Origin: Sulfurimonas crateris
GTDB lineage: Bacteria; Campylobacterota; Campylobacteria; Campylobacterales; Sulfurimonadaceae
NCBI GenBank assembly: GCA_945883795.1
Contig: CAMCYC010000002.1
Coordinates: 1-64,000 of the forward strand
Direction of reading: 5' to 3'
DNA: 64,000 bases
The stretch's first letter is position 1. The number at the start of each line of letters is the position of its first letter. A program made the translations under genes and the position numbers. A model generated the notes under the pieces. That model worked only from the letters and a program-made list of their open reading frames with translations, was not told the origin of the DNA and ran no database searches. Below, piece after piece: positions 1-56,439 of this stretch.

Positions 1-3000
1 CTTATGTTCCATCAACAAATGATGTTGTTTCTGTAAGTGGTGGAGTTGATAGTGCAACGGGTAAAGCTTTTGAGGGAATTCTTAAAGCTCCTATCAGTGG
101 CACAAATATAAATGTTACACCATTAACAACTTTAGTTGCTGCTTTGGTGGCTTCTGGCACAAATATAGATACAGCTTATAGCACAGTTGCAGCTGCTCTT
201 AATATTACAAGTGATGATTTAAAAGCCGACCCTGTTGCCATGTTGGCAACTGACCCAGTTAAAGCTTCGGCTATTTTAACACAAGCATTAACACTGCAAA
301 AAGTGGCAGAAACTTATGCTGAGGCAGTATCAGTTGATACAACCATCCAAAACAATGTTATTGTGTCTGTTATGAGTGCAGTTGCAAAAAGATTGGATGC
401 AAATGAAAGTTTTGATAGTGTTTTGAATGATACTACACTTGCTAATTCTATTGCTACAGATTTAAATTCTACAGATACTCTTGCAACAGATAAACTCGTT
501 GCAGCTTCAAGTGCGGCTCAAGCCGTTGTTACATTAGTAAGAAATCTTACTCATGAGGGTATAATCCCTTCTACTCTTGAAGCAATATCTCAAAATATTG
601 AAACTAAAACAACTCTTATTGAAAGTGGTGTAAGATTTATTGCAGTTGCAACCACAATAGAAAGGATTGAAATTGCAAAAACAACAGTAGCTGTTAAGAT
701 AACAGAAGCAAACTCTGGTGTATCAAGTTCATCTAGCAGTTCTTCAAGCTCTTCTGTTTCAAGCAGTTCCTCAAGTTCTTCTGTTTTAAGTTCAAGTTCA
801 AGTTCATCTAGCAGTTCTCCAGTTGTTCCTACTTCAAGTTCTTCTATTTCAAGTAGTTTATCAAGCTCAAGTTCTTCTTCAACTACAACTACAACAGTTT
901 CAGGTCGTGCAATTGATGGTTATTTGAGTGGTTCAACAGTAAAGCTACCTAATGGTGCAACAGGCACAACAAATGCAGATGGTAATTGGACAATTACATT
1001 TAATGGTTCTGCAATAACGGGGATTATTTCTGTTAAAGATGGTAATGATACTTCAACAGGTCAAGCTTTTGAGGGTGTTTTAGAAGCACCAATTACAAGT
1101 GGAACTGTCAATGTTACCCCACTTACAACATTAGTTTCTGCACTTGTAAAATCTGGTAAAACTGTGGATACTGCTTATAATACAGTTGCTACAGGATTAG
1201 GAATATCGGCTGATAATTTAAAAGCTGACCCAATTGCCATGTTAGATACAAATCAATCAGAAGCTTCTAAAATTTTAAAACAAGCGCTTACAATACAAAA
1301 AATAGCAGAAACTTTTGCCAAAGCAGTATCAACTGATGCTACGACTCAGGATGCAGTTATGGCTTCTGTTATGAGTGCAGTTGCAAAAAGATTGGATGCA
1401 AATGAAACTTTTGATAGTGTTGTAACTGATAGCAATAGTACTTTGGCTAATTCTATTGCAACAGATTTAAATTCTACAGATAATAATCTTACAGTTGCTA
1501 AATTAACAGCTGCTTCTGATTCTGCAAAATTCGTTGTCTCGTTGATTGCTCAAAATACCACCATTACGACAGACACTTTTACTCAAATATCTCAAAATAT
1601 TGATGGAAATACAACTGTAGTTGAAGATAATTTAAAAACTGTAGCAGAGGCAAATACTACAACTACCATCACTGTACCAAATATTAAGCCTGTTCTGAAT
1701 CTTCTTGATGACATGAATAAATCAGAAGATTTTGCAGATTTTAATATTACACTCAATGCAACAGATGAAAATGTTTCTTCTTTAGTTTTTGGAGCTAAAT
1801 CTGATTCAAATGCAACTGTATCCGTAAATGGTAATACATTGAGAATTTCTCATGTACCAAATGCAAACGGTGTTGTGACTATAGATGTAAATGTAACTGA
1901 TGGAAATCTAAGTGATACGAAATCTTTTAAACTTAATATTAATGCGGTAAATGATGCACCTATTCTTACTTTAATTGCACAACAAACAAAAAGTGAAGAT
2001 TCTGCTGATTTTAACCTTACACTTAGTGCTACAGATGTAGATAATGCAAATTTGACTTATTCAGCATTTTCACATAATACTTCAAAAGCAACCGTATCAA
2101 TAACGGGTAATACATTAAAAATATCTCCAGTAGCAAATGCAAATGGTGTTGTGACTATAGATGTAAATGTAACAGATGGACAATTTAGTAATTCAAAAAG
2201 CTTTGATTTAAATATTACAGCGGTAGATGACACACCAGTATTACAAACATTATCAAATCTTATTAAAGCAGAAGATGACAATAACTTCTCACTAGATTTA
2301 AATGCAACAGATATAGATGGTGATACTATCACTTACACAACAAGTTCAAGTAAGCCAAACATTGCAACGGTTAGTATTGTAAATGGTAAATTGGTAGTGA
2401 CTCCAGTAGCAAACGCAAACGGTGTTGTAAAAATAGATGTTAATGCAACAGCAAACGGAAAGACTGTTACAAAACAGTTTGATTTAAATATTACAGCAGT
2501 AGATGACGCTCCAGTGCTTGGAAATATTACAAATCCATCAACAAAATTAGAAGATTTTGCAGACTTTAATATTACATTATCTTCAACTGATGAAGAGAAT
2601 GACACCGTAAAATATAATGCTAAATCAACTACAGCAAATATAACTGTAAGTGGAAATCAACTCAAAATTTCTCCAATCAAAGATAAGTCTGGAAGTGTGA
2701 GTATAGATGTAAATGTAACTCAAACGAACAATTCATTACTTTTTGATACACAAACTATCACATTTAGTGTAACTGCAGTAAATGATGCACCAACAATTGG
2801 TACAACTTTTAACAATATCCAAATGTTAGAAGACAATGGTACAACAAACTACGAGCTTAATGTCTCAGATATTGAAGGAGGTGATTTAAATGTCACAGTA
2901 GATTCTAACAATACAGCACTCATGACAGTTTCTAAAAATTGGACAAATTTAGTGAATCAAGCTGGATGGACTCAACCACTAGATTTTAATCTTTCAACTG

Positions 3001-3695
3001 TTCCAAATGCAAATGGAATAGTTCGTATTACAGTAACTGCTCAAGACCTAGATAAAAATTCTACAACAAAAAGTTTTGATGTAAATGTAACTGCGGTAAA
3101 TGATGCACCTACGATTGTTCCAATTAGTACACAAACGGCAACGCAAAATACTAAAATCACAGATTTTAATGTAACTGCAATAGATGTAGATAGTAAAATA
3201 TTCACATACTTTGCATCAACTTTACCAACAGGTATAGATATTAACACAACTACTGGTGTCATTTCTGGTACGCCTACAAGTGAAGGTAATTCTACTGTAA
3301 CTGTAACTGTAAATGATGGTGAGTTGAATGCTACAACAAATTTTGCTTTTAATGTTGGGGCGGCAGTAGGTTTAAATGAAATAGTTGCTAGTCATAACTT
3401 ATCAAGTGATTATAATGATCATAAAGTTACGGCAGCTTTAGCGGGTACACTCTCGGCTAGTACTATTAAAATTGAAACTAGTGCAGTTGTTCCTACAGGA
3501 ATTATTCAAGATACGACAAATTTAAATATTATATATTTAGTTGAAACAGTAGGTGATACTAATAATTATATAGAATTTAAATACAAAACTGATTCTTATG
3601 CAAATGGACATACAATTAGAATTACGCTTGGTACAAAAATAGCTGTAATTACTGTAGGACAGTCTTATACAAATGATGAGGTAGTTTTTCAATAG
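1..3695 (+). CDS. Large repeat-containing surface/adhesin-like protein, 5' end outside window
   Basis: The reading frame is open from base 3, so the gene is cut by the window edge and about 1230 residues of its C-terminal part are present. In order they are: a partial copy of an alpha-helical-looking module (to about base 700), a Ser-rich linker (bases 721-893), and a second full copy of that module (about 903-1670), which starts with a short carboxypeptidase-regulatory-like stretch (AIDGYLSGSTV...TTNADGNW). Six beta-rich repeats ending in VNDAP, VDDTP or VDDAP follow (about 1681-3360). The last repeat is of the putative-Ig (He_PIG) type, with LPTGIDINTTTGVISGTPT. A unique C-terminal domain of about 110 residues closes the protein. 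Such architecture is typical of large extracellular or cell-surface proteins; binding target and anchoring are unknown. No signal peptide can be seen because the N-terminus is missing. Gene 2 downstream carries closely related VNDAP repeats. Confidence 0.85.
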   Translation, partial: YVPSTNDVVSVSGGVDSATGKAFEGILKAPISGTNINVTPLTTLVAALVASGTNIDTAYSTVAAALNITSDDLKADPVAMLATDPVKASAILTQALTLQKVAETYAEAVSVDTTIQNNVIVSVMSAVAKRLDANESFDSVLNDTTLANSIATDLNSTDTLATDKLVAASSAAQAVVTLVRNLTHEGIIPSTLEAISQNIETKTTLIESGVRFIAVATTIERIEIAKTTVAVKITEANSGVSSSSSSSSSSSVSSSSSSSSVLSSSSSSSSSSPVVPTSSSSISSSLSSSSSSSTTTTTVSGRAIDGYLSGSTVKLPNGATGTTNADGNWTITFNGSAITGIISVKDGNDTSTGQAFEGVLEAPITSGTVNVTPLTTLVSALVKSGKTVDTAYNTVATGLGISADNLKADPIAMLDTNQSEASKILKQALTIQKIAETFAKAVSTDATTQDAVMASVMSAVAKRLDANETFDSVVTDSNSTLANSIATDLNSTDNNLTVAKLTAASDSAKFVVSLIAQNTTITTDTFTQISQNIDGNTTVVEDNLKTVAEANTTTTITVPNIKPVLNLLDDMNKSEDFADFNITLNATDENVSSLVFGAKSDSNATVSVNGNTLRISHVPNANGVVTIDVNVTDGNLSDTKSFKLNINAVNDAPILTLIAQQTKSEDSADFNLTLSATDVDNANLTYSAFSHNTSKATVSITGNTLKISPVANANGVVTIDVNVTDGQFSNSKSFDLNITAVDDTPVLQTLSNLIKAEDDNNFSLDLNATDIDGDTITYTTSSSKPNIATVSIVNGKLVVTPVANANGVVKIDVNATANGKTVTKQFDLNITAVDDAPVLGNITNPSTKLEDFADFNITLSSTDEENDTVKYNAKSTTANITVSGNQLKISPIKDKSGSVSIDVNVTQTNNSLLFDTQTITFSVTAVNDAPTIGTTFNNIQMLEDNGTTNYELNVSDIEGGDLNVTVDSNNTALMTVSKNWTNLVNQAGWTQPLDFNLSTVPNANGIVRITVTAQDLDKNSTTKSFDVNVTAVNDAPTIVPISTQTATQNTKITDFNVTAIDVDSKIFTYFASTLPTGIDINTTTGVISGTPTSEGNSTVTVTVNDGELNATTNFAFNVGAAVGLNEIVASHNLSSDYNDHKVTAALAGTLSASTIKIETSAVVPTGIIQDTTNLNIIYLVETVGDTNNYIEFKYKTDSYANGHTIRITLGTKIAVITVGQSYTNDEVVFQ
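3..1670 (+). repeat. Tandem duplication of a coding module inside the first surface protein
   Basis: Two copies of the same module lie on either side of the Ser linker. Copy 1 runs from the window start to about 700 and copy 2 from about 903 to 1670. Both encode KAFEG/QAFEG, an APIxxGTxNVTPLTTLV-type stretch, a KADPxAML motif and RLDANExFDS. At DNA level a 43-base stretch starting at 366 recurs exactly at 1365, an offset of 999 bases (333 codons), so the duplication looks recent or kept similar by gene conversion. Confidence 0.8.
721..893 (+). repeat. Poly-serine linker with mixed serine codons
   Basis: An almost pure serine tract of roughly 55 residues with scattered Val, Leu, Ile, Pro and Thr. 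It is written with mixed TCA/AGT/TCT/TCC/AGC codons in short 6-12-base units. It probably acts as a flexible extracellular spacer between the two module copies. The codon mixing argues that it is kept as a protein feature and is not a simple microsatellite. Confidence 0.8.
1681..3360 (+). repeat. Six cadherin/Ig-like VNDAP repeats
   Basis: Six consecutive repeats of roughly 90-100 codons. Each has a core resembling ED.ADFN(I/L)TL.(A/S)TD, a PNANG/VANANG(V)V.IDVNVT segment, and an ending of NAVNDAP or TAVDDAP. Stretches of 25 or more bases, such as the one encoding NGVVTIDVNVT, are identical between repeats near 1867 and 2147. The family (tandem-95/cadherin-like) is usually found in extracellular bacterial proteins, often calcium-stabilised; calcium binding here is inference. 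Confidence 0.75.
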
Positions 3696-3761: not shown

Positions 3762-6700
3762 ATGAGTAATAAAAAATTGATGATCTCTGTTGTTACTGCA
3801 GCTTTACTAGCATCTACGACTGCTGTTGCAAAACAAACAATAGAATTACAAACAGGATGGAATTTAATAGGCTTACAAGAAAAACCTTTTAATTCTGACG
3901 CATGGCTAATATCTTCATTAGTCCAAACAAACAGTGATATTTTAACTATCACGAATGTTACAAGAACATATTCTTCTACTTCTTCAAGAAATTCACTTAC
4001 ATCATTAGAATCTGGTAAAGGGTATTGGGTTAATGTTTCTAAGGACACTAATCTAACCTTGGATGGCACATTAAGTAATTACAAGCTTGAAGAGCTTAAT
4101 CCAGGATGGAATCTTGTTACCGTACCTACAAATATCACTGATATTAATGGCTTTATTGGCACAATGAATTCAAGAGGTTATAGGATAAATTTGATTACAA
4201 ATGTAACACGAACTTATACAGTTGGTGCTTCAAGAAATTCTTTATCTTCAATGGATGTTAATCATGGTTATTGGATCAATAGTGATAAACTAGCCCTAAG
4301 AGCCAAAACATCAGATGGTATTTATTTGAACTTTTACGCAAATGACACGGCAGATACATTAGATAAAAATGCTACATCTTTGGCAATCTCAGCTTTAACT
4401 TATGCAGATATTGTTGCAGGTAATAAATTAGCTTCAAATTTTGCAAACTTTAGTGGTGAAGTTGTAGTTGCTACACAAGACCCAAATACAGATGTTATTA
4501 CAGAAAAAACACATAATACAGTAATAGTGAGTTCAAGTGGAATCTCAACTTCTTCTCTTCCTAGTGTAGAGACCGTTGTCACAAACACAACAATAATAGA
4601 CAAAGTTGTAATATATGCCTATTCTATTACAGCAGGTGGTGCACCACAGATTTTATCGGGTGCTACACTCGTAGAAGTTAGCAATGATGGTACAGAAACA
4701 GAATTAGGCACATCAGATTCTAATGGTTTGATTGTTCCTAGTAAAGATATACGAGGTAATAAAGTTATTTTAAGAGCAAGTGGTGTTGCAGATATGTCAA
4801 TATCTTTAGACTCTAATTATAGCAAACCAAGCTATTACGCTATTTTAGCAGCTGGTGCAACAGAAGAGATTACAGAAACTACTAGTGTCACACCAACTAA
4901 TAATAGAATTTTAGGGCGAATTACACCTGCCTTAGAGAGAGAAATTTCTCAATATAATGATGTAAAAGGTTTAGTTGTTTACCATATGAAACAAGTCAGT
5001 GTAAAAAGAGGGACAAAACAACAATTTACCGTTACACAAAATACAGTTTCAGAAAAAACAAGCTTAGAATCTGCATTAAAAGAAACACGCTTTACTCCAA
5101 AAATTATAACTGCATTAGATGTTAGTTTAAAAGATGGTTCTACAAATAAAACTCTCAATCCATCAACAACAAAATTTAGTGATTTATATTTAAACGATGT
5201 AGATAATGGTGGTTCTCATGCAAGTGATATAGATTCTTTTTATATTGGTTTAAGTGGTAAAGATACTTCATATAATTATGATGGATTAGATGCAAATTCA
5301 ATTTTTAATGACACTAATGCAACACAAGGTAAATTAGAAGTTTGGATGTATAAAAATAATGCATGGACAAAAGTGCAAGCACATTCTAAAGTTTTAAAAG
5401 TAGCATCACTCGGTGATTCTGATGAAGAAAAAAATATTAAAAAACGACTGAAACAAAGTGATTTTTATATTAAACTCAATAGTGTTGGAATAGGTGCATC
5501 AGACTATGATGGATATTATCCTCTTGCAATTGTGTATAAACAAGAAAGTATTACACAAAAATCTTTTACTGTAACAGTCAAAGATAGTGAGACACAAGCA
5601 ACGATTCCAAATGCTTTGGTAAGACTTGGTGCTACAAATTATGTGACAGATGCAAATGGAAGTGTTGAGCTTAGTGTGACTGTAACAGGTGATGGTGGGC
5701 TTATTCCTCTTAGTGCTACAGAACCAAAACACTTACGAACAGTTTCTTCGGTTAATCCTTTGACTCTTAGCGATACAACCTCAAATAATATTGAGCTGTC
5801 ATTATCTCCAATACCAAATAGTGCAACAATTACAGGTACTGTTTTAGATAGTGATTTAAAATCAGGTGTTTCAAACTCTTTAGTAGAAATTATAAATCCT
5901 ATTTCTCTTGATAGTACAAAAATCACTACAAGAGATGGAGTGAGTGGAATTGAAGTTGGTTTGGATTCTGGAGCAAAATATACATGGTATATTAAAGAAG
6001 TTCCACCTAGCACAAGTGTAGGTTTAGGAAGAGTTTCTCAAACTTCATGGATGCAAGTAAAAGAAGATAAAGCTAGAAATGGTAATTTTATCTCTTATAA
6101 TGAAATCGTAAAAACATTACTGAAACCTGGACTTGTTGGTGAATCTGATGCAATTTCTGGTTTGTTTGATATTGCTGTAAAAATAGAACATGATGTTAAC
6201 GGTGATGGTATAAGTGATTATACAGAGTTAGCAACCAACGGTACAAATACACTCCTTAATGATGATGATAATGGTACCAGTGTTATTGGTACACATGTGG
6301 CAGATTCATTTGTAAAAAATTATGCTAAAAAAATAGGGCAACTTAAAATTGCACTTGATGCTGAGAAAGTAGCAGAAGCTTCAACAAATGCAGCAGATTC
6401 TGGTACGGTGATTTTTACAACTGCTAATCATAAATATGTACAATATACTCAAAGCTCAACTTTTGAAGATGAAAATAACGATGGTTCAGATGAAGGTAAA
6501 TATGCAAATTATGATTTATCTATTGGTGGCGGAACTGAAATAAGAGCTTTTAGAATTGATGGATTTAGTACAGATTTTGTAGGGTTAAATGCATCACTCA
6601 CATGGAAAGCAACAATTTTTGCAGATATTGTAAATAGTTCTGGCAATGTTGTAAGCAGTGTGTTGTTAGATGAAAATTTTAAATGGAAATCTTTAAATAA

Positions 6701-9700
6701 TGCTAAAGATAAATATGAAGATTTATTAAAAGCAGAGCAAGGAGAAATACTAGCAGATAATGCAAATTATGTTATTGGTAGTTTAAAATATGTCGATGGA
6801 AATATTGTAAGTGCTGATAGTACAATCTCTTATAAAAGATTAATGCGTTCTCTAGCAGATGATAGAATTATTAAAGCACTTAATATGTCTATTGCAGAAA
6901 TTGCAACTCAAGCAGGTGTGAATACAACAGGTGTAGCAGATACAAGTATCAAGATGTTAAAAGATGGTATTTCTCTTTCTGTTGTAGCAGATATTAATTA
7001 TGTAAGAGACCCAGATGATGCAAATGAATCGGTAAGAGCAATTCTACATACAGATGGTTTAACACTCAAAGCAGATAAAGTTGAAGATTTATTAACAATT
7101 ACAGATGCTCCTGTTTCTCCACTTTCTCAAATTTCTGGAGCTATGAGTACTTATAGTGATAGAGTTGGTGAGTTTAGATTTGCAAGGGTTCCTTATGATT
7201 TTGGAAAACTTAACGAAAACAACTCTCTTATGAGATTAAAAGCATCAAGATTTGATTATTTTGATAATAGTGTAAATATTGGTGCATTTGAGCAATTAGA
7301 ATCACAACTCACTACAGTACAACAAAATATTGATATCAAAGCAAGAAAGAGTTATTCGGTAACACTTGATTTTAAAGATGGCAATACTACAAATGATGCT
7401 TCATTAGCCAACATTGTTGGTACGACAGTGGTCATGACAGGTTCAAAAGCAAATAATGGAGAGATAACTACCAATCTTATTGGTGCAGATGGCAATTTAT
7501 CGGCATTATCACGAGTTATTCCAAATACAAGTGGTTTAAATCCAACTTATAATGATATTTTAGAAGGGTATCAAAGTGTGATGATTTTTAAAGATGGCTT
7601 TAAAGCTGTTGAGAAAAAATTAAATCTTCGCTCAAATCAAATTGTAACGATAAACTGGGAACCAGTTGGCGATCCAGCTGATTTTAAAGCACAAATTGAT
7701 ATAGATTATGAAAATTCTATTGTAAATTATGCAACAGGTAAAGCTATTTTATCTGGAAAGATTTATGATAAGAACGATACCTCATTGTCCAAAGATACTC
7801 AAATATCACTGCTTCTTAACAATCAGCCGTTAAATGTGAAATTGGTTCGTTCATCGGAGACTAGCCCTGATTTTACGGTGAGTTTTGACCTTCCAAAAGG
7901 GGAGTCTCAAGCAAAAATAATTGCTACAAATGACAAAGGTGTGAGCATAAGTTCTGTAGTTTATTATGATTACAATCCTGATTTTGGTAGCGTAAAAGGA
8001 AATGTTAGCGGTGTAAAAGCTGATGAATATGCTATTGTAAGTCTTTACAATGAAGCGAATGAGCCAGTTGCTAATGCTGTTCCAAATGACGATGGAGAAT
8101 ACAACTTTGTTTCGTTAGCGGTAGGCAAATATAGTATGAATGCGATTGCGTTTGATGCTAGTGGCAATGATTATCCTTCAAATGCAGTTTCTGTAACTGT
8201 TGTTGGCGGGCAGATAATTTCAGCAGATAGTATGGCAATTTCCCATGTTTCAACTGCTCTAAGTGGCGCACCTAGTGTTGAATTTACAACAGATGATATT
8301 ACGCTTCCAACTACTGACATAGCTTTAGTAGCAACTGTCAATAATTTTGAGCTAGGTGATGATGTAAGCGATAGATTTGCGGTAGTTGTAAATGATGTTG
8401 CATATGCCGTAGAAAAATCTGATTTTACAGTTACTACTACAGCAAATAATTACACATTTAACTATTCATTAGCTTTAGAAAATCTCCAATCAGGTCAAAA
8501 TGTTGTTTATCTTGTTGCAGTCAATAAAAATGGAAAATACGATTTTTCAGCGGATTTATATATTACGACTGCAGCAGCAACTAGCATAGCTTCAAAAGAT
8601 ATTGAATTTGTAAATACATCAACTCTCAAAACAATAGCGGATGATTATATTTATATGGATTTATACACATATAATGGACAGCTCAAAGCACACTATTTAT
8701 CCGACACTAATAGTACGGATAATTTTATCACTGTTGGTGCTTTAGAGACAGGAAAATATGTTGCAGATATTTATACACAAAATAATAATTACATCGGTTC
8801 AACAGTATTAGTTGATGTAAATAGTAGTGGAATATACATGAATAACACTCCTCTTAAAGATGATGATAATGACACTATGTATGAAATTGGATTAAGAGGA
8901 CAAGCGTCTTTGGTTGCCAATATTGCACCAACTTTAGACTTACCTCTAAATCCTTTGAGCATGGATAGTTCTGATGGTAATTTTACAATCTACAATATCG
9001 CATCTGATAAAGACGGTGATGATTTAACTATAACTCTAGGTGACTATAACAATTCAGTTGTTACAGTTATAGTAGATGGTTATAATTTAGTAGTCACGCC
9101 AGTGGGTGATGGTAAAATATCTGTACCAGTAAGTGTAACAGATGGAACAGATACAGTGAACGGTAGCTTTATTGTCAAAGTGTCAACTAGAGTAGCTGAT
9201 AATTTTGCACCTTCCATATTTGGTACTTCCGCTTATAATTTAAGTGAAACTAATATGAATGCTTCTATCACAATTGTGGATGTAGAAGGTGATGATTTGA
9301 ATGTTTCATTAACTGGATATGACAGCAGTGTAATCAGTGCTACATATGCTGATGGTTTTGTAAATATTCTAGCTTTAGCTCATGGAAATACAAGTTTGAC
9401 TGTTAATGTGAATGATGGACATCATGAGATAGTTAGCAAAATATTTGCTATCAATGTAACTTTAGAGACTGAAGACAATGAAACTGTTAATAACGCACCA
9501 ACAATTCACACTATTTTTGACAATGTTGTCATAGAAGAAGATAGTGGAATCATGAATTATGAATTGAATGTTTCAGATGCAGAGGGCGAGGATATAAATG
9601 TTAGTGTGGAATCTAACAATACAAACATTTTAACTGTAACTCCAAACTTTGGCGAATGGATAACTCAAGCAACATGGGCTAACGAAGCTTTAGATTTTAA

Positions 9701-10160
9701 TTTTACAACGGTACCAGATGCAAATGGAATGGTTCAGGTCACTATCATAGCAAATGATGGAGATTTAAATTCCACAAGAAGTTTTGATGTAAATGTAACT
9801 GCAGTGAATGATGCACCTGTACTTTCTCCAATACCAGATGTAAACTCAACTACAAATGTTACTATTCCAGTTCATGCAACAGATATTGATTCAGAGATTC
9901 TCACATACAGTGCTAGTGGGTTACCTACAAATGTTGATATTAATCAAACTACAGGTTTAATATCTGGTAGTACAACAGAAATAGACACTTATTCTGTGAT
10001 TGTAACTGTTTCAGATGGTGAAGCAAATGCTACAAGGAATTTTAACTTGACTGTTTCAGTGATAGAAACAGCCATAGAAACTCCACCAACTGTTCCAAAT
10101 ATAGAAGATAATACAACGCTATCAACTCCACCGAGTGTTCCAAGTATTCCAAATTCATAA
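3762..10160 (+). CDS. Giant modular exported protein with GW modules and VNDAP repeats
   Basis: A complete 2132-residue protein. It starts at an ATG behind a strong AAGGAG site, with a Sec signal peptide (residues 1-23, ending AVAKQ). Residues 28-100 and 109-177 are two copies of a short module that begins GWNLI/GWNLV and ends GYWVN/GYWIN. Further on lie regulatory-like beta segments, a D-x-N-x-D-G-x-x-D calcium-loop-like motif near residue 808 (HDVNGDGISDYTE), and several Ig-like segments. From about residue 1720 there are VNDAP-type repeats very like those of the upstream gene. The 66-base gap upstream shows no terminator, so the two genes may be co-transcribed. The protein is most likely secreted or surface-exposed. 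No enzymatic domain was recognised, and the large middle part (residues 180-1700) is unassigned. Confidence 0.85.
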   Translation: MSNKKLMISVVTAALLASTTAVAKQTIELQTGWNLIGLQEKPFNSDAWLISSLVQTNSDILTITNVTRTYSSTSSRNSLTSLESGKGYWVNVSKDTNLTLDGTLSNYKLEELNPGWNLVTVPTNITDINGFIGTMNSRGYRINLITNVTRTYTVGASRNSLSSMDVNHGYWINSDKLALRAKTSDGIYLNFYANDTADTLDKNATSLAISALTYADIVAGNKLASNFANFSGEVVVATQDPNTDVITEKTHNTVIVSSSGISTSSLPSVETVVTNTTIIDKVVIYAYSITAGGAPQILSGATLVEVSNDGTETELGTSDSNGLIVPSKDIRGNKVILRASGVADMSISLDSNYSKPSYYAILAAGATEEITETTSVTPTNNRILGRITPALEREISQYNDVKGLVVYHMKQVSVKRGTKQQFTVTQNTVSEKTSLESALKETRFTPKIITALDVSLKDGSTNKTLNPSTTKFSDLYLNDVDNGGSHASDIDSFYIGLSGKDTSYNYDGLDANSIFNDTNATQGKLEVWMYKNNAWTKVQAHSKVLKVASLGDSDEEKNIKKRLKQSDFYIKLNSVGIGASDYDGYYPLAIVYKQESITQKSFTVTVKDSETQATIPNALVRLGATNYVTDANGSVELSVTVTGDGGLIPLSATEPKHLRTVSSVNPLTLSDTTSNNIELSLSPIPNSATITGTVLDSDLKSGVSNSLVEIINPISLDSTKITTRDGVSGIEVGLDSGAKYTWYIKEVPPSTSVGLGRVSQTSWMQVKEDKARNGNFISYNEIVKTLLKPGLVGESDAISGLFDIAVKIEHDVNGDGISDYTELATNGTNTLLNDDDNGTSVIGTHVADSFVKNYAKKIGQLKIALDAEKVAEASTNAADSGTVIFTTANHKYVQYTQSSTFEDENNDGSDEGKYANYDLSIGGGTEIRAFRIDGFSTDFVGLNASLTWKATIFADIVNSSGNVVSSVLLDENFKWKSLNNAKDKYEDLLKAEQGEILADNANYVIGSLKYVDGNIVSADSTISYKRLMRSLADDRIIKALNMSIAEIATQAGVNTTGVADTSIKMLKDGISLSVVADINYVRDPDDANESVRAILHTDGLTLKADKVEDLLTITDAPVSPLSQISGAMSTYSDRVGEFRFARVPYDFGKLNENNSLMRLKASRFDYFDNSVNIGAFEQLESQLTTVQQNIDIKARKSYSVTLDFKDGNTTNDASLANIVGTTVVMTGSKANNGEITTNLIGADGNLSALSRVIPNTSGLNPTYNDILEGYQSVMIFKDGFKAVEKKLNLRSNQIVTINWEPVGDPADFKAQIDIDYENSIVNYATGKAILSGKIYDKNDTSLSKDTQISLLLNNQPLNVKLVRSSETSPDFTVSFDLPKGESQAKIIATNDKGVSISSVVYYDYNPDFGSVKGNVSGVKADEYAIVSLYNEANEPVANAVPNDDGEYNFVSLAVGKYSMNAIAFDASGNDYPSNAVSVTVVGGQIISADSMAISHVSTALSGAPSVEFTTDDITLPTTDIALVATVNNFELGDDVSDRFAVVVNDVAYAVEKSDFTVTTTANNYTFNYSLALENLQSGQNVVYLVAVNKNGKYDFSADLYITTAAATSIASKDIEFVNTSTLKTIADDYIYMDLYTYNGQLKAHYLSDTNSTDNFITVGALETGKYVADIYTQNNNYIGSTVLVDVNSSGIYMNNTPLKDDDNDTMYEIGLRGQASLVANIAPTLDLPLNPLSMDSSDGNFTIYNIASDKDGDDLTITLGDYNNSVVTVIVDGYNLVVTPVGDGKISVPVSVTDGTDTVNGSFIVKVSTRVADNFAPSIFGTSAYNLSETNMNASITIVDVEGDDLNVSLTGYDSSVISATYADGFVNILALAHGNTSLTVNVNDGHHEIVSKIFAINVTLETEDNETVNNAPTIHTIFDNVVIEEDSGIMNYELNVSDAEGEDINVSVESNNTNILTVTPNFGEWITQATWANEALDFNFTTVPDANGMVQVTIIANDGDLNSTRSFDVNVTAVNDAPVLSPIPDVNSTTNVTIPVHATDIDSEILTYSASGLPTNVDINQTTGLISGSTTEIDTYSVIVTVSDGEANATRNFNLTVSVIETAIETPPTVPNIEDNTTLSTPPSVPSIPNS

Positions 10161-10177
10161 AAATTTATTAAGATTTT

Positions 10178-10198
10178 AGGGAGACGAATTCTCTCCCT
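10178..10198 (+). terminator. Hairpin after the giant surface protein
   Basis: A perfect 7-bp stem (AGGGAGA/TCTCCCT) with a 7-base loop lies 18 bases after the stop codon. No T-run follows, so it may be a weak terminator, an attenuator or an mRNA-stabilising hairpin before the next gene at 10222. Confidence 0.4.
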
Positions 10199-10221
10199 TA
10201 CATAAATTAAAGGATATAACA

Positions 10222-11688
10222 ATGAAAAAGATAGTTTTAAGTATAGTCGCAGTTTCTAGTTTAGCATTTGCTACACACATTCAGCTTCAAGAGGGTTGGC
10301 AACTCTTAGGTACTTCAAATCCTATTGTTGATATGAAAGTTTTTAATAAATCCTCCATTCAAACGGTTTGGACATTTGATAAAAACATGAAAATTTGGAA
10401 GGCTTATTCTCCAAATATGAATCTTCAAGCAATTATTAATCAAGCTTTTACCCCTTTGATTTCAATAAATTCAAATGAGGGTTTTTGGGTAAATGTAAAT
10501 CAGGGTTTTAGCGATATTTTAGTTTTAGATGAAAATGTTACTGATACAAACAACACTATTGCAACAAGTAGATATGTGGACCCTCTTCTGAGTGTAACAC
10601 TTTCCCATTTAGCTGGAAAAACATTTAAATATATAGAAAATCATATGCATGATACTTCTAGCACATCTCAAGAGTTAAAGTATAAAACTCTTGTTTTTAA
10701 TGATGATGGTGTAGCTATAGATGTATTAACATATAATAGTTGTGATTATAATGATACCAATAACACATCTACAACAATTACAATAAAAGTAGAAAATGAT
10801 AACTTAAATTTTTATGCAGAGGATAATACAGCTATAGCAAAAAGCTATAAAATATTAGCCTATGATGATTCTGGAATTGTATTTGGACAGCTAAATACAG
10901 CCACTTCTTATACTTATTCTACTCTTGGTTTACCTGGAGAGATATTTTATTTTTTAAATGAAAATATCTCCGCTTCACCAACCGATATGAGTACAAAAAT
11001 TCCTTTTGCTATGTATCAAACTTGGAATTCATCATCATATAGTACCTACGAATCTAATGGAACGATGATGGGTCACAATGTTTATAATGGTATAGATAAC
11101 TCTTATTATCACCAAGACTATCTTGTTGTGAATGGTGCAATCACTACTTCAAGTATATCTGAGGGGCAAGATTATAATAGTAGTTGGACTACAACACTAC
11201 AAGACATTTATACAATAGGAAGATACAATATTTCTACTATGCATTCTGAGGGTTCCTATTGGAATAGTATCGTGAAATATTACGATACAAACAACACAAG
11301 TTACGACTTAAATCTTAGTGCAAATCCTACAATAGATACTTGGCAAGAAATTTTTGCAGTTACAGGGAATCGACTCAATAGCACATACTATTATGAAGCG
11401 AACAATACTACAAGTTATGGAGAGATATATACTATTTCAGAAGATGGTAAGAGTTTGACAACAACAACTCCTTATGATTGTTATTCTCGTATTGAGACAA
11501 TAGATTCAAATGCTATCATGTCGCAACATCTTGAAAATTGGGCTGAGATAAACTCTCAAAGTCCGATTGTAAATGATAGTTATACAACTCAAACAAACAG
11601 ACCTTTAAATGAACAAAAATTTCAAAGTTTTGAAGAGATTCAAAATAATATAAAATCGAGAATTTCCCAATCTTCTTGGGTTAAATAA
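10222..11688 (+). CDS. Exported protein with N-terminal GW module
   Basis: A 488-residue protein with a signal peptide (MKKIVLSIVAVSSLAFA, cleavage near residue 17). A module opening with LQEGWQLLG and closing with GFWVNVNQGF follows (about residues 20-97). It is the same type as the two modules of the preceding protein and those of the protease downstream. The remaining ~390 residues are rich in Tyr, Ser, Thr and Asn, look beta-rich, and match no family I recognise. The start has AAAGGA eight bases upstream. The gene is followed by a hairpin terminator. It is probably secreted or outer-membrane associated; function unknown. Confidence 0.75.
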   Translation: MKKIVLSIVAVSSLAFATHIQLQEGWQLLGTSNPIVDMKVFNKSSIQTVWTFDKNMKIWKAYSPNMNLQAIINQAFTPLISINSNEGFWVNVNQGFSDILVLDENVTDTNNTIATSRYVDPLLSVTLSHLAGKTFKYIENHMHDTSSTSQELKYKTLVFNDDGVAIDVLTYNSCDYNDTNNTSTTITIKVENDNLNFYAEDNTAIAKSYKILAYDDSGIVFGQLNTATSYTYSTLGLPGEIFYFLNENISASPTDMSTKIPFAMYQTWNSSSYSTYESNGTMMGHNVYNGIDNSYYHQDYLVVNGAITTSSISEGQDYNSSWTTTLQDIYTIGRYNISTMHSEGSYWNSIVKYYDTNNTSYDLNLSANPTIDTWQEIFAVTGNRLNSTYYYEANNTTSYGEIYTISEDGKSLTTTTPYDCYSRIETIDSNAIMSQHLENWAEINSQSPIVNDSYTTQTNRPLNEQKFQSFEEIQNNIKSRISQSSWVK

Positions 11689-11694
11689 ACTTTT

Positions 11695-11714
11695 TCCCAA
11701 CACCTTCGTTGGGA
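11695..11714 (+). terminator. Rho-independent terminator-like hairpin
   Basis: A perfect 7-bp stem TCCCAAC/GTTGGGA with a 6-base loop, followed by ATTTTGC. It starts six bases after the stop codon of the 488-aa protein. A second, overlapping possibility (CCCAA/TTGGG, 11676-11690) lies within the last codons. Confidence 0.65.
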
Positions 11715-11721
11715 ATTTTGC

Positions 11722-11727
11722 TATACT
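11722..11727 (+). promoter_or_regulatory. Possible -10 box before the metalloprotease gene
   Basis: TATACT just downstream of the terminator and 30 bases before the ATG at 11758. No clear -35 is present. The position between a terminator and a start makes a separate promoter plausible. Confidence 0.35.
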
Positions 11728-11757
11728 CTATCCTATTTTAAAATATGGACCTTTTTA

Positions 11758-13113
11758 ATGATAAAATTTTTTCTCCTTTCTTTTCTTATTTTCTTATTTT
11801 CTCATGCAGATAGCTCCATAGATGATAAAAATGTTTATTATACTTCACAACATTTTAGAGCTATTGCAGGAATAGCGTATCAAAATTCAACTTCTATACA
11901 AACTTTGGCAACAAAATTTTTAGATGCTGCGGAGGATGCATGGAATAAAGAGGTTGTTGAACTGGGATTTTTAGCACCTAGAAATACACAAAATAAACTT
12001 ATAGATATTTATCTAGGCAATAAATCTGCGTATGATTATGAAAATGGGATATATGTTTCAATAAGTTCGGCTTATGCTGGTTATGCTTGGTATTATTTAT
12101 CTGATAGAACGCCTTATTTTGTGATGAATTCTTCCATGACAGATGAACAAATAAAAGTAACCGTTGCACATGAATTTTGTCATACCATTCAATATGCTTA
12201 TTTTCTAGATGATAATATAGCCGAAACAAAATGGAGAAAAAATATTTGGTGGTTAGAGGCAACTGCTGTACTTATGGAGGATGAAGTTTATGATGATATT
12301 AATGATTATATAAATTTTCTTTCTCCATTTTTTAGTTATAGTTATCAGAGTTTTGAAATTTATAATGGTTCTCATGAATATTCTATGGTTATATTTGCTA
12401 AATATATACGAGAAAAATACGGGATGCAAATTATCCAAGAGAGTTTGAGTGCGATTGAAACATCTGGAGATAAAGGATATTTTGAGATATTAGATGATTT
12501 GTTAGCAAAAAATTATAATTCTAGTATGAAGAGTGCATTGAATGAGTTTACTTTATGGGTTACAAATGCAAAAGAGTATTTCCATGAGGGGTCAAGTTAT
12601 CCGCCGTTAAGACATTATAAAGCTACAGATAATATCACAATTCAAAAAGGTGGTATAGAAGTTGTTGATAATTTATTAAGTGGTTGGAATATGGTTACTT
12701 TGAGTGATAGCAATATTCATGATTTAAATATTAGTAATCTAAAAATTCTTTGGAGTTATGAAAATGGGACATGGAAAAATAGTGTACAAAATCAGATAAA
12801 TGAAGTCAATAGTTCTAGTGGATATTGGGCAAAAGTAGATGAAAATTCCTCTTTATATTATACATATTTTGATAGTAGTGTGCAAGATATTTCAAAACTT
12901 GATAAAAGCTGGTCTTTTGTTGGAACAACCAAAGAGTTTTATACAAATACATTAGCAAATCAAGAGCCATTAGTTATTTGGCAATATGTCAATGAGACTT
13001 GGTTTGTATATTCAAATAATGTTGATATACAACAAAAAATAGAAATATTAAATTATCCAACTTTAAATAAAATAGTGCAATTTAGTGCTTATTGGGTTCA
13101 TAAATTAAATTGA
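11758..13113 (+). CDS. Putative secreted zinc metalloprotease with C-terminal GW modules
   Basis: A 451-residue protein with a hydrophobic signal peptide (residues 1-17). The catalytic region contains VAHEFCHTIQ (H138, E139, H142), an HExxH zinc site. It is followed 25 residues later by WWLEATAVLMED, whose Glu167 is well placed as third zinc ligand, the gluzincin pattern. From about residue 300 two copies of the module seen in the neighbouring proteins follow. The first opens GWNMVTL and ends SGYWAKV; the second opens SWSFVG and ends AYWVHKLN at the very C-terminus. The modules may tether or target the enzyme to the same surface as the neighbours. The exact peptidase family is not certain; substrate unknown. 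A strong terminator follows. Confidence 0.75.
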   Translation: MIKFFLLSFLIFLFSHADSSIDDKNVYYTSQHFRAIAGIAYQNSTSIQTLATKFLDAAEDAWNKEVVELGFLAPRNTQNKLIDIYLGNKSAYDYENGIYVSISSAYAGYAWYYLSDRTPYFVMNSSMTDEQIKVTVAHEFCHTIQYAYFLDDNIAETKWRKNIWWLEATAVLMEDEVYDDINDYINFLSPFFSYSYQSFEIYNGSHEYSMVIFAKYIREKYGMQIIQESLSAIETSGDKGYFEILDDLLAKNYNSSMKSALNEFTLWVTNAKEYFHEGSSYPPLRHYKATDNITIQKGGIEVVDNLLSGWNMVTLSDSNIHDLNISNLKILWSYENGTWKNSVQNQINEVNSSSGYWAKVDENSSLYYTYFDSSVQDISKLDKSWSFVGTTKEFYTNTLANQEPLVIWQYVNETWFVYSNNVDIQQKIEILNYPTLNKIVQFSAYWVHKLN

Positions 13114-51474: not shown

Positions 51475-51504
51475 CACCAATTAAAAATTTAAAGGGTAAT
51501 TTTG

Positions 51505-51936
51505 ATGAATAGACAATCAAGAAAAGCATTTTCTCTCATAGAACTTATGATAGTTATCGTTATATTGGGACTTCTAGCTGCTATGGTTATGCCGAGTCTT
51601 ACTGGCAAAGGTGAAGAGGCAAAAAGAAATTTAGTGTGTGTTCAGATGAAAAGTATTTATAATGGTGCGCTTGACATGTTTAAAATTAATAATAGCGTCT
51701 ACCCAACTACGGAAGAGGGATTAGAAGCACTTGTAAAAAATCCTGATGAAGAAAAATATGCAAACTATTCAACTAGTGGGTATTTTAAAGACTCTAAGTT
51801 ACCAAAAGATTCTTGGGGTAATAATTTTATATATATAAATGATGAAGGTTCTATCGAACTTATCTCTCTTGGTGCTGATAAAAAAGAGGGTGGAAAAGAT
51901 GAAGGCGCTGATATCAAAATGAGCGGATGTAAATAA
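51505..51936 (+). CDS. gspG: Type II secretion major pseudopilin GspG
   Basis: The 143-residue protein has a short basic leader cleaved before Phe in RKA-FSLIELMIVIVILGLLAA, the class III prepilin signal. The major-pseudopilin body follows, with PTTEEGLEALV and DSWGNNFIYIN, which are specific to GspG. It builds the periplasmic pseudopilus. Ala, not Gly, stands at -1. ATG 51505 is chosen over a TTG at 51502; AAGGG lies upstream. Two Cys (NLVCVQ and the C-terminal SGCK) could form a disulfide. Confidence 0.93.
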   Translation: MNRQSRKAFSLIELMIVIVILGLLAAMVMPSLTGKGEEAKRNLVCVQMKSIYNGALDMFKINNSVYPTTEEGLEALVKNPDEEKYANYSTSGYFKDSKLPKDSWGNNFIYINDEGSIELISLGADKKEGGKDEGADIKMSGCK

Positions 51937-51945
51937 ATTAACTTT

Positions 51946-52470
51946 ATGAAAAAAGCTTTTTCTCTCATAGAGTTAATGATAGTCATTATGATTATTGGAG
52001 TTGTTTATACGCTTGCAATAAGTCAGTTTCAAAAAATAGGGGAAGGAGGCACTTCTCTTACTCTGGAAAATCTTAAAGAATATTTACAGTCATTTGAACA
52101 TGAAAAAAGTGTGAAGCTTTTATGTTTAGACGATTGTTCTAAGTGTGATGTTTTTGTAGATGATAATAAAAGTGAAAATAGTAAAACCATTGAACATTTC
52201 CTAGATAAAAGTGTTAAAATTTATAGATATGAACTCGCTTATGGTTACATAGAAGTGCAAAGAGATGTTTATTTTAATATAGAAAATGTTGAAGAGCATG
52301 TGTGTTTCTCTTATGAAATAGATGAAAATGGTATTGGTGATCAGGTTTTAGTTGAGTTTAAAAATAATTTTTATGACTTTTCAACTTATTTTAGCAAAAC
52401 GCTCAATTATAGTTCAATGCAAGAGGCTATACAAGAAAAAGAAAATTTGGTAAAAGAAGTGATGAAATGA
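51946..52470 (+). CDS. gspH: Minor pseudopilin, GspH-like
   Basis: The 174-residue protein begins KKA-FSLIELMIVIMIIGVVY, a prepilin signal with Ala at -1 like GspG. The periplasmic part is unlike known minor pseudopilins, apart from the fold expected of the family. It contains a C-x4-C-x2-C cluster (CLDDCSKC, about residues 57-64) and a later Cys. The GspH assignment rests on its place after gspG. Its stop overlaps gspF by four bases. Confidence 0.6.
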   Translation: MKKAFSLIELMIVIMIIGVVYTLAISQFQKIGEGGTSLTLENLKEYLQSFEHEKSVKLLCLDDCSKCDVFVDDNKSENSKTIEHFLDKSVKIYRYELAYGYIEVQRDVYFNIENVEEHVCFSYEIDENGIGDQVLVEFKNNFYDFSTYFSKTLNYSSMQEAIQEKENLVKEVMK

Positions 52471-53681
52471 TTTTTAAATTTAAAGGTATCAATAGTCATG
52501 GGCAAAAAGTTGTTGAAAAAATTGAAGCAATATCTTTAGCAGAAGCTAAAAGTAAATTAAAAGCAAAAAATATTATATATCAGAGTATTTCAGAAGATTC
52601 TCCCTCATTATTTGCCAATTTCACATTCGCTAGAATGTATAAAATACCAGCAAAAGAGTTATCTTCCCTTTCAAGGGAACTTGCCATGTATATTCGTTCA
52701 GGTATTACAATTGTTTCAGCTCTTAAAATTATACAGACACATTATGAAAAAGATAAAAAGATAAAACTTTTTTTGACAACAGTCAGTACTCATCTCGATG
52801 AAGGAAAAGATTTTTTTACTGCACTCGATACGCAAAAAGTTGTTCTTTTGCCAGAATTTTTTAAACAATCAATAAAAGTAAGTGAAAGTGGAGGAATTCT
52901 TGATGAAGTGCTTATGGAATTGTCTCGCTTTTTAAAAGAGCAAGATAAAATTAATAAAGAGATAAAAGGTGCATTTGCTTATCCAAGTTTTATGATTATT
53001 GTTTCACTTTTAATGATTTCATTTATGCTAGCTTTTGTTGTGCCTCAAATAACTGGGATTTTTGAAAGTATGCATCAAAAATTACCAACACCAACAATTG
53101 TTGTTATTGCTATGGGTGATTTTTTTAATCATAACTTTACAAAAATATTGGGTGGTATTTTTATATCAGTTGTAATTTTCTTACTTTTAATGAATAAAAG
53201 TTATAAATTTGCTTATAGTGTTCATAAATTTATTTTAAAAGTGCCACTTTTTGGTCAAATAGCACAAAAAAGTGAATTAGCAAGATTTTCTTATATAGCA
53301 TCTCTTTTAACTCGTTCAGGAGTTCCTTTTGTACAAACTATCAATTTAAGTGCAAATATTCTGAATAATTTGGTTTTAAAAGAGTTGTTTAGTGGTGCTG
53401 CAAAAAAAGTGGTTGAGGGTAAATTGCTTTCAAATGCTCTGAATGATTCGAAGACTAAAATTGATTACGCATTTATTCAATCTATTGCACTAGCGGAGGA
53501 AACTTCTCAAGTTGAAAATGTTTTGAGCAATCTTTCAGAACTTTATTTTGAAGAAAATAGAGATAAAATTAGCATGCTCTTAACTTTACTAGAACCTGCA
53601 CTAATGTTGTTTGTTGGTGGAAGTATAGGGTTTATTGTTGCTGCAATGTTATTGCCAATTTTTTCTATGAGTATTAGTTAA
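52467..53681 (+). CDS. gspF: Type II secretion inner-membrane platform protein GspF
   Basis: The 404-residue protein has two cytoplasmic T2SSF domains, with LSSLSRELAMYIRSGI and ARFSYIASLLTRSGVPF, and three transmembrane segments (near 170-190, 215-240 and 370-395). It links the ATPase GspE to the pseudopilus. Length matches the family. The start ATG overlaps the upstream stop (ATGA). Confidence 0.93.
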   Translation: MIFKFKGINSHGQKVVEKIEAISLAEAKSKLKAKNIIYQSISEDSPSLFANFTFARMYKIPAKELSSLSRELAMYIRSGITIVSALKIIQTHYEKDKKIKLFLTTVSTHLDEGKDFFTALDTQKVVLLPEFFKQSIKVSESGGILDEVLMELSRFLKEQDKINKEIKGAFAYPSFMIIVSLLMISFMLAFVVPQITGIFESMHQKLPTPTIVVIAMGDFFNHNFTKILGGIFISVVIFLLLMNKSYKFAYSVHKFILKVPLFGQIAQKSELARFSYIASLLTRSGVPFVQTINLSANILNNLVLKELFSGAAKKVVEGKLLSNALNDSKTKIDYAFIQSIALAEETSQVENVLSNLSELYFEENRDKISMLLTLLEPALMLFVGGSIGFIVAAMLLPIFSMSIS

Positions 53682-53683
53682 AT

Positions 53684-54595
53684 ATGAATAACACTGATAA
53701 AAAAGGGATAGCTCTTCTTATAACTCTCTTTTTCGTTATAGCTATTACGGTTGCTATAGGGGTAGGATTTAAGCAATTAAAAGAAGGCGCTGAACATATT
53801 GAAAATGAAAATTTCATGATTCAAACAGATGTAATTTTGGAAGATGTCATGCAAATTTTAAAAAAATTGCCACAACTTAATGATATAAATTCAAGTCAGG
53901 ATTTTTTTATTTTTTTATCTCAAGCATCATTTATACCATTGCAAAGTAATGGAATAAGCGTTACTATTGAACTGAGTAGTGCAAGGTCGAAATTTAATGT
54001 AAATAGTTTGGTTGAAACTAATATTACAGTAAATCAAAATAAGATAGATTCGTTAAATTTTTATTTGAGTAAATATATGGTGCAAAAAGAATACATTAAT
54101 ATCTTACTTGATGGTATGGGTGGAATTAAAGAAGATTTATCTTATAATAGTGCCATTTTTAATGAAAAACCATATCTATTTAGAAATTACATTACATCAT
54201 TAAATCATCTTAATGAGATGAATAGTTTTTATACGAAAACTTATCGGGATAATAGTTTGAAAAATATAGATGCTGAAAAACTTTTTGATTTTAGCACTGA
54301 TAAAAATAGTTCAATCGATCTCAATTATGCAACTCCTCAAGTATGGGAATTGTTACTTGGATGTGATAGAAATAGAGCTGAGCAACTTTTTTTGGGAGAA
54401 GGAGCTTATTCATCAATACAAGACTTAGAGCTTAATGATGATGAAAGTTTAAACATGTCCCATTTTAATACAAGTTTTTTTGAGAAATTTATCAATGTTA
54501 AAATTGAGATACAAGAGAATTCTCAAAAAGCTAAAATAGTGTTTGAATATGATATTAATAAGAAAAAAGGTTCTAACTTTGTTTACAAAATTTAA
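53684..54595 (+). CDS. gspK: Minor pseudopilin GspK-like
   Basis: The 303-residue protein has a prepilin-type start DKKG-IALLITLFFVIAIT, where GspK characteristically lacks the usual Glu at +5. A large periplasmic domain follows, with SARSKFNVNSL, reminiscent of the GspK motif GKININ, and a helix-hairpin-like NYATPQVWELLLG. It probably caps the pseudopilus tip. Two bases separate it from gspF. Confidence 0.75.
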   Translation: MNNTDKKGIALLITLFFVIAITVAIGVGFKQLKEGAEHIENENFMIQTDVILEDVMQILKKLPQLNDINSSQDFFIFLSQASFIPLQSNGISVTIELSSARSKFNVNSLVETNITVNQNKIDSLNFYLSKYMVQKEYINILLDGMGGIKEDLSYNSAIFNEKPYLFRNYITSLNHLNEMNSFYTKTYRDNSLKNIDAEKLFDFSTDKNSSIDLNYATPQVWELLLGCDRNRAEQLFLGEGAYSSIQDLELNDDESLNMSHFNTSFFEKFINVKIEIQENSQKAKIVFEYDINKKKGSNFVYKI

Positions 54596-55508
54596 TAATA
54601 AGTTGAATACGATATTTTTAGACATTAATTCACCAAGGTTTGAAATAACTGGTAAAGTCAATGTTATTTTATCTCCATCACTTTATTGGGTAAAAAAATT
54701 ATCTTTACCTGTAAAGTATACACGAGATGTAAAAAAACTTCTGCCTTCTGTATTTGAAGATATTTTACCTACTGGAAACTATAATTATAGTGTATATAAA
54801 AGTGGTGATGATTTTTTCGGATTTGCTTATGAAGATAAAAAAATCTTAGAGTTACTCACTAAAAAAGGGGTTACATTTTCAAATATAGCGAATGTATATT
54901 TTGCTCAGAGTGAATTAACAAATCTTACTGGTTCTGCAAAAATTAGTGAGTTCCAAAGTATCTATAAAAAAGATGATATTGTGATTTTAGTTCCATGCTG
55001 TTGGGTAGAAGAGGGATTAGCATTAGATTTAAATGAGATTGTACTTTCTAAAAATACAATAACTTTACAGCAGTTTAGTCATATAGTTGATGAAAAAAGT
55101 ATTTATAACATTGGTGCAATTTTACTTATTTTTATTGTACTTATAGCCTCCGAATATATTATGACAACGCAAAAAATAGTACATGTTACAAATGAAATAG
55201 AGAATGTATTTACTCAAAATAATTTGAAATCAACAATGTTCGAAAATAAAGCGATGCTCAAAAAATATGACTTTATACATGAAAAGCAGACAAAAGTAAG
55301 AGAATACCTTTCTCTCATTTTATCATGGCAGTTAAAAGATACAGAAAAATTATCTTCAGTTGGTTTTAAAAATAATGTTTTAGAGGCTGATTTTAGTAGT
55401 TTGTCAGAATTAACTCAAAAAGGGATAACTCAAAAATTGCAACAGAGTGAAATAAAATTTAAATCATCAATCTCAAAAGATAGTTGGCATGTGGAAATGA
55501 TATTATGA
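54579..55508 (+). CDS. gspL: Type II secretion assembly protein GspL-like
   Basis: From the TTG at 54579 (AAAAGG eight bases upstream) the protein has 309 residues. The first ~180 residues resemble a divergent actin-like cytoplasmic domain. One transmembrane segment (about 188-206, IGAILLIFIVLIASEYIM) and a periplasmic ferredoxin-like domain follow. This is the GspL plan, which recruits GspE. Earlier starts at 54543 or 54549 would lengthen the overlap with gspK. Sequence identity to classical GspL is low; assignment is by layout and position. Confidence 0.65.
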   Translation: MFTKFNNKLNTIFLDINSPRFEITGKVNVILSPSLYWVKKLSLPVKYTRDVKKLLPSVFEDILPTGNYNYSVYKSGDDFFGFAYEDKKILELLTKKGVTFSNIANVYFAQSELTNLTGSAKISEFQSIYKKDDIVILVPCCWVEEGLALDLNEIVLSKNTITLQQFSHIVDEKSIYNIGAILLIFIVLIASEYIMTTQKIVHVTNEIENVFTQNNLKSTMFENKAMLKKYDFIHEKQTKVREYLSLILSWQLKDTEKLSSVGFKNNVLEADFSSLSELTQKGITQKLQQSEIKFKSSISKDSWHVEMIL

Positions 55509-55912
55509 ATCGTATAAATCCATTTTATATAGGAATAATGTTAGGTGTTATAGTTATTGTTTTGGCTATTAAACTAGGATATGCCAAAAGTGAGTTAAAA
55601 GATATGGAAAATTCTTATAAAGAGACTTTAAAGATTTCAACACAATTGAGCGGACTTAAAGATGTTTATTCTAATAAAGAGAAAACAAAAATATCGTTAC
55701 AAAGAATTTTAGAACTTTCATCTTTAAGTGCAGCGAAAATTCAAAAAAAATCTACTAATTCTGGTATGATTATTACCTCTGATAGTATAAATAAAAATGA
55801 AGTAAATTTTTTGATGGGGAAAATTCTGAATGCCTCATTTGATATAAGCTCATTAAAAATAAAAAAATTAAGTAAGACTCATGCGAGCTTATATATGGAG
55901 ATAAAATGGTAA
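55505..55912 (+). CDS. gspM: Type II secretion protein GspM-like
   Basis: The 135-residue protein has one N-terminal transmembrane helix (FYIGIMLGVIVIVLAIKLGY), then a coiled-coil stretch and a small beta-alpha periplasmic domain. The layout fits GspM, the partner of GspL. The ATG at 55505 overlaps the gspL stop (ATGA). Assignment is from topology and order. Confidence 0.6.
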   Translation: MNRINPFYIGIMLGVIVIVLAIKLGYAKSELKDMENSYKETLKISTQLSGLKDVYSNKEKTKISLQRILELSSLSAAKIQKKSTNSGMIITSDSINKNEVNFLMGKILNASFDISSLKIKKLSKTHASLYMEIKW

Positions 55913-56439
55913 ACAAACTCTTACGATTTTTTTTATATTTTATATTTTTTATTTTAGCACTTATATATTTTACTCCAAAAAATAGTATTTATTATTTTTT
56001 GGAAAAAGAGTTGAAACCTTATGGTGTTATTATTTCAGATGAAGAGGTTACGGATAGAGCTTTTTTTCTTGAGATACTTCATTCAAATATTTCATTTGAA
56101 AAAATACAGAGTGTATCAATATCTACAACTGACATAAAAATTTTTGCTTTGTATAATTCAATAAATTTTAAGGATATTGTTCTTTCTAGCGTGGCAGAGT
56201 CTTTTATACCTCTTCATGTTGAAAATGTAAATATAATTTATACTATTTTGTCCCCTTTGCATATTCTTGGAAGTTCTTATGGGGAGTTTGGTGAAGTGCA
56301 TATGAGTGTAAGTATTTTAGAAAGAAAACTCCATGTAACATTAATTCCATCTGAGTTGATGTTAAAAAAATATCAGTCTACACTGGGTAATTTTGTAAAA
56401 AATCAAAATGGAGAGTATGAATATGATAAAGTTTTCTAG
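55906..56439 (+). CDS. gspN: Membrane-anchored T2SS protein, possibly GspN
   Basis: The 177-residue protein has a single N-terminal transmembrane segment (FFLYFIFFILALIYFTP) and a beta-rich periplasmic body (LHVENVNIIYTIL, HVTLIPSEL) resembling the repetitive beta structure of GspN/AsmA-like proteins. It overlaps gspM by 7 bases and gspC by 17. The name is tentative. Confidence 0.5.
   Translation: MVNKLLRFFLYFIFFILALIYFTPKNSIYYFLEKELKPYGVIISDEEVTDRAFFLEILHSNISFEKIQSVSISTTDIKIFALYNSINFKDIVLSSVAESFIPLHVENVNIIYTILSPLHILGSSYGEFGEVHMSVSILERKLHVTLIPSELMLKKYQSTLGNFVKNQNGEYEYDKVF

Follow-up and report, generated by a model that had tools for sequence, protein, structure and literature searches.

Folded, beta-rich domains that are placed terminally and are common to many exported proteins are known from type IX secretion, where they are the C-terminal domains. 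In Listeria, the GW modules of InlB and Ami are SH3-like and attach proteins non-covalently to the cell-wall surface, the more so the more copies are present (PMC4010754). An end tag on many unrelated proteins that are kept at the surface is also found in the GlyGly-CTERM/rhombosortase and MYXO-CTERM/myxosortase systems, both of which are coupled to the type II secretion system, T2SS (PMC6219818, PMC11980579).

Here, we describe a module from the window, by which we mean the whole analyzed stretch of 64,000 nucleotides. Like the Listeria GW modules, it is small, contains a Gly-Trp dipeptide, occurs in tandem and is located on exported proteins, including enzymes. It differs from them in that it is found at both termini, that none of 26 copies matched a GW or SH3 family in Pfam, and that the host phylum is Gram-negative and has no lipoteichoic acid. 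The GlyGly-CTERM and MYXO-CTERM tags consist of a short motif, a hydrophobic segment and a basic tail and are exclusively C-terminal, whereas the module is a predicted folded domain with no hydrophobic segment that is N-terminal in 45 of 82 proteins. Compared to the type IX C-terminal domains, no NCBIfam match was obtained for 26 copies, and about half of the module copies are N-terminal. The module resembles the Listeria GW, GlyGly-CTERM and MYXO-CTERM systems in its proposed working and is a member of none of them by the features tested. A literature search yielded no paper on the module or on MXAN_6640, the family closest to one of the proteins that carry it.

Five Copies of One Module in Three Neighboring Genes

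The features of the window to which we refer are as follows.

3..3695 (+), tandem-95/cadherin-like protein upstream, truncated by the contig start
3762..10160 (+), exported giant protein of 2132 aa with a signal peptide, two modules and then a long stalk
3828..4070 (+), giant-protein module copy 1, N-terminal (independent profile iE 2.4e-7)
4077..4316 (+), giant-protein module copy 2 (independent profile iE 2.2e-4)
10222..11688 (+), exported 488-aa protein with a single N-terminal module, the remainder without family
10267..10530 (+), module copy of the 488-aa protein, canonical, used for structure prediction (iE 1.2e-18)
11758..13113 (+), exported metalloprotease of 451 aa, close to the MXAN_6640 family (NF045524, 123.5 bits)
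12169..12183 (+), HEFCH (HExxH) zinc-binding motif, protease residues 138-142, read from the sequence
12655..12867 (+), protease module copy 1, penultimate (iE 1.1e-8)
12880..13110 (+), protease module copy 2, last, ending at the stop codon (iE 4.6e-7)
51502..60641 (+), T2SS operon with GspG, H, F, K, L, M, N, C, D and E in this order, the proposed export route

A sequence-only reading of this DNA had claimed that one module is shared by the three neighboring exported proteins, at the N-terminus of two and as a C-terminal tandem in the protease. Both the sharing and the positions were borne out. All five window copies were recovered, with E-values of 1.2e-18 to 2.2e-4 (at Z=3000), by a profile of 61 copies that came exclusively from other genomes, while no match was obtained in window proteins shuffled 20 times. 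On the evidence of sequence, all five copies are homologous. The pattern W(N/Q/S)(L/M/F)...(G/A)(Y/F)W was found at exactly five places in the six-frame translation of the whole window, all of them in the three ORFs. A MAFFT alignment of the five copies contained three invariant columns, including the Trp residues of GW and GYW. A third, middle Trp is nearly invariant over 87 copies, so that the full motif is G-W ... W ... W; the two copies of the giant protein have no middle Trp in the alignment.

Apart from the modules, the stalk of the giant protein contains weak SdrD_B/CarboxypepD_reg-like stretches. The metalloprotease matched NF045524 over residues 43-288 (E 1.4e-35) and shares the HExxH motif with the MXAN_6640 family, but it scored below the curated cut-off of 140 bits and differs from that family in having two C-terminal modules.

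Predicted Fold and Comparison to Known Domains

Structure prediction of one copy, proposed in the sequence-only reading as a check, gave a confident single domain. The AlphaFold model of the copy from the 488-aa protein (30 alignment rows) had a pLDDT of 87.5 and a pTM of 0.79, with strands at residues 2-7, 10-16, 31-38 and 43-47, a helix at 51-60, and strands at 71-77 and 83-88. A single copy is thus predicted to fold alone as one autonomous domain, which is beta-rich and spans about 65-85 residues. The tandem at the C-terminus of the protease was modeled with low confidence (pLDDT 63.9), and its strand order, which agrees with that of the single module, was not relied on.

The module apparently represents a small domain that is so far undescribed, in agreement with the sequence-only reading, in which it was not recognized as a named domain. 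No GW, SH3 or CBM family was retrieved in a Pfam scan of 26 copies at E-values up to 10, and an NCBIfam scan of the same number of copies gave no match, including to the sorting-tag models. Identity with a known domain was rejected, as searches of Pfam, NCBIfam and PHROGs with many copies gave only scattered weak matches, and so was a PDB homolog, for which the best E-values in the profile search were 0.13 and 0.36. A Foldseek search with the predicted module gave no match at E 0.001. The fold search returned nothing above Z 5, and the matches listed include no SH3 fold, an absence that is no proof. A relationship to HPr or cupin was also rejected, the best Z in VIA being only 4.9, which we read as a common arrangement only.

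Distribution in the Campylobacterota

The module is not peculiar to the three genes, a point absent from the earlier account, since 15 further ORFs of this genome bear it. The first-round profile from the five copies matched 18 further places in the genome, and the iterated search identified 28 copies in 18 ORFs. In the Campylobacterota, to which the in-depth search was directed and where the sequence-only reading had proposed to look, 20 of 397 evenly drawn genomes are carriers. Their copy numbers are very unequal, with this genome and G210 being rich in copies and most congeners having none; the congener G416, which is less complete, has 27 copies. Carriers named from GTDB contigs include Sulfurovum, Sulfurospirillum and metagenome-assembled genomes of the Sulfurimonadaceae.

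GWNL-type repeats are present in exported proteins of other phyla, which is a possible lead to a wider spread. Of two narrow scans of genome contigs, the first gave no confirmed relative and the second identified 13 loci, all from Campylobacterota, a result that leaves other phyla possible. The module was not found in narrow searches of viral contigs, plasmids and phages.

In this genome, 9 of the 16 module loci are located less than 2 kb from a contig end (contigs C59, C46, C6, C10, C62, C18, C108, C35, and C26), as compared to about 21% of the genome. The assembly is probably interrupted by Ser-rich linkers and by C-terminal cassettes that are almost identical (C18:36715 and C6:196), which is a hint of recent cassette duplication. 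In another genome (L115:7937-11647 in G004), a C-terminal module pair follows a perfect tandem of NNENENVVNNEQ repeats.

Terminal Placement and Passenger Proteins

Matches cluster in exported proteins, a point that the sequence-only reading had proposed to check. In a non-redundant set of 82 proteins with 150 aa or more, the first module directly follows a signal-like N-terminus in 45 and is located at the extreme C-terminus in 28, while several of the remaining nine are cut, frameshifted or mis-started. Signal peptides, transmembrane segments and lipoboxes were called by simple scripted rules, according to which a transmembrane-like segment beyond the signal is present in four of the 82 proteins and a lipobox in one. 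Since other anchors are rare, most passengers would be soluble unless the module holds them.

The passengers identified with Pfam include a GH5 cellulase with a CBM4_9 domain, a class 3 lipase, a secretory lipase, a C10 peptidase, a subtilase (S8), a GH114 protein and a PETase-like hydrolase, as well as an MtrC/MtrF-like cytochrome, Beta_propel, DUF1800, PA14/VWA, beta-helix repeat and LamG proteins. Good support for the earlier suggestion that exported proteins share a terminal tag comes from the strictly terminal placement, the unrelated passengers, the want of another anchor and the lack of a match in the libraries.

We give about an even chance to the reading that the module is a terminal handle for non-covalent surface retention or sorting after export. 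Passengers would be exported by Sec and cross the outer membrane, most likely through the T2SS. The folded module would then bind a common component of the envelope or matrix, for example a surface receptor, LPS or exopolysaccharide, so that the passenger would stay attached to the cell or close to it, with tandem copies raising the avidity. For the window, this would place the giant protein next to the 488-aa protein and the metalloprotease in one surface layer. Because the handle is common to unrelated enzymes, a cytochrome and giant stalk proteins, it is best explained by a partner that all of them share, either on the cell or in its matrix. Against retention at the surface, no receptor or processing enzyme was identified among the neighbors of module genes, and a broad ligand-binding role would yield a similar list of passengers.

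A possible but unlikely alternative is a CBM-like accessory module that binds carbohydrates or other substrates and directs secreted enzymes toward polymers or particles outside the cell instead of the cell's own surface. Such a role would fit the conserved aromatic residues and the presence of the module on GH5 and GH114 proteins, lipases and peptidases, sometimes beside LamG, PA14, CBM4_9 or Ser-rich linkers. However, enzymes whose substrates are unrelated bear the module, as do non-enzymes such as the MtrC-like cytochrome, and this unrelated chemistry disfavors a substrate-specific binding role. In the GH5 protein, a CBM4_9 domain is present besides the module, so that the module is not needed there for the substrate, and no CBM family of Pfam was matched. 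To our knowledge, CBMs are less strictly confined to the termini, which also counts against this alternative.

Association With Type II Secretion

In the T2SS operon of the window, GspG scored above its cut-off, while GspD, E, F and C had the expected family as their best match, though under the cut-off; GspH and K were weak, and GspL, M and N were assigned by position only. GspG above the cut-off was recorded in 14 of 18 carriers as compared to 73 of 358 non-carriers (p 7e-7). Genomes with two or more copies had it without exception (12 of 12), as compared to 75 of 364 others (p 1.3e-8). G391 and G393 were left out of these counts since they had been added because they carry the module. When the association was stratified by family, using family tables tallied by hand, the p-value was 0.21 for any copy number and 0.037, post hoc, for two or more copies. 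Because it weakens in this way, the raw signal is attributed largely to shared lineage or lifestyle, and the T2SS was rejected as the sole explanation, the within-family test not being significant. The proposed link to the T2SS thus held for the multi-copy genomes but was weak within families. From the co-occurrence, and from a module protein next to the T2SS operon in G391, we infer that the module proteins are probably exported through the T2SS.

We consider it improbable that the module is instead a recognition domain for the T2SS machinery, required for export and not for retention. The presence of GspG in every multi-copy genome agrees with this proposal, as does a divergent or degenerate module protein in G391 (L111:8936-9904), which is located beside the T2SS operon (3735-8739) and divergently transcribed from it. 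Against it stand the weak within-family association, the four single-copy carrier genomes without GspG above the cut-off and the absence of the module from most T2SS-positive relatives. We also know of no fixed export domain among T2SS substrates, which further reduces its likelihood. The G391 protein contains a second domain (WLDRNLGA...YYQWGR) that resembles those of L049, L136 and L139.

Position-Specific Subtypes

Most C-terminal copies (21 of 28) end with a stop codon 3-5 residues past the last Trp. C-terminal copies terminate behind the strand at 71-77 and thus have no counterpart of the last strand of the N-terminal copies. A GWH motif was observed in 11 of the 28 C-terminal copies and in none of the 45 N-terminal ones (p 6e-6), and the position classes cluster on the tree more than under shuffling, although the tree is poorly resolved and orthologs inflate the clustering. 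On the basis of the GWH bias and this clustering, N-cap and C-cap subtypes of the module appear to exist. A terminal Lys is present in 18 of the 28 C-terminal copies, with a window background of 14 in 49. The hydrophobic segment followed by basic residues of the GlyGly-CTERM or MYXO-CTERM type was not found at 26 of these 28 ends, which stay below 1.6 in a 19-residue Kyte-Doolittle window, one of the two exceptions being a frameshifted fragment.

The strict terminal placement, the tandem copies, the position-specific subtypes and the missing last strand of the C-terminal copies would also suit a structural cap or protein-protein docking domain that protects ends or interlinks exported proteins and has no targeting role, but a protective cap need not be so widely and patchily shared and no cognate partner domain was identified, which makes this the least probable of the explanations.

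Conservation of the Gene Cluster and Implications

The sequence-only reading had further proposed that the three genes may encode one linked system, in which the protease would act on or beside the giant proteins. In G125, a genome from another family, locus L096 contains a giant protein, a module protein and a metalloprotease in the same order and orientation as in the window. The L096 giant has two N-terminal modules and is 24.8% identical to the window giant over 1680 aa (E 8e-64); the L096 metalloprotease has two C-terminal modules and is 34.8% identical to the window protease (E 2e-82); and the middle proteins of the two clusters have only the module in common. The repeated order of the trio supports, as far as sequence can tell, an association of the giant protein and the protease. 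The proposal of one linked system is thus supported in part, but the giant was detected in just 2 of the 397 genomes (the window genome and G125), and a search of 17 further genomes congeneric with G125 gave no other copy. A protease of this type, likewise fused to tandem modules, occurs alone in G416 (52.5% identity) and in a more distant form in G210, and its fusion to the tandem is therefore conserved more widely than the cluster.

The cluster possibly begins with the gene of the truncated tandem-95/cadherin-like protein at 3..3695. In L096, the giant is preceded by a protein whose start domain is similar, but its pairwise E-value to the 3..3695 protein is only 0.22 and not significant. The L096 cluster is located between genes that we take to be involved in polysaccharide export and chain length (L096:1-1826) and a presumed sugar-nucleotide gene, similar to mannose-1-phosphate guanylyltransferase (15865-17274), as read from their sequences. 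Such neighbors are a hint that the module might bind to an exopolysaccharide matrix.

With a shared terminal handle, dozens of so far unconnected exported proteins gain a common feature. If tethering is true, a single profile would predict the surface proteome of the Sulfurovum-, Sulfurospirillum- and Sulfurimonas-like carriers, including proteases, lipases and possibly an outer-surface cytochrome, and the module would provide a means of surface display that is usable at either end with no lipid or transmembrane anchor. More speculatively, and in our view unlikely, free-living Campylobacterota could have a sorting system of their own, in which a folded tag at either end, once it has passed through the T2SS, is recognized at the surface by a receptor or ligand of its own and the whole secretome is displayed. 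By analogy with the type IX C-terminal domain, though with unrelated parts, the secretome of such a system might, with the same reservation, comprise hydrolases, cytochromes and giant adhesin-like proteins.

Downstream of the cluster, an ORF of 538 aa (14796-16412, +), which from its sequence we take to resemble a phage or plasmid primase/helicase, stands by itself, flanked by an aminopeptidase gene and an alanine racemase-like gene, and is possibly the remnant of a mobile element.
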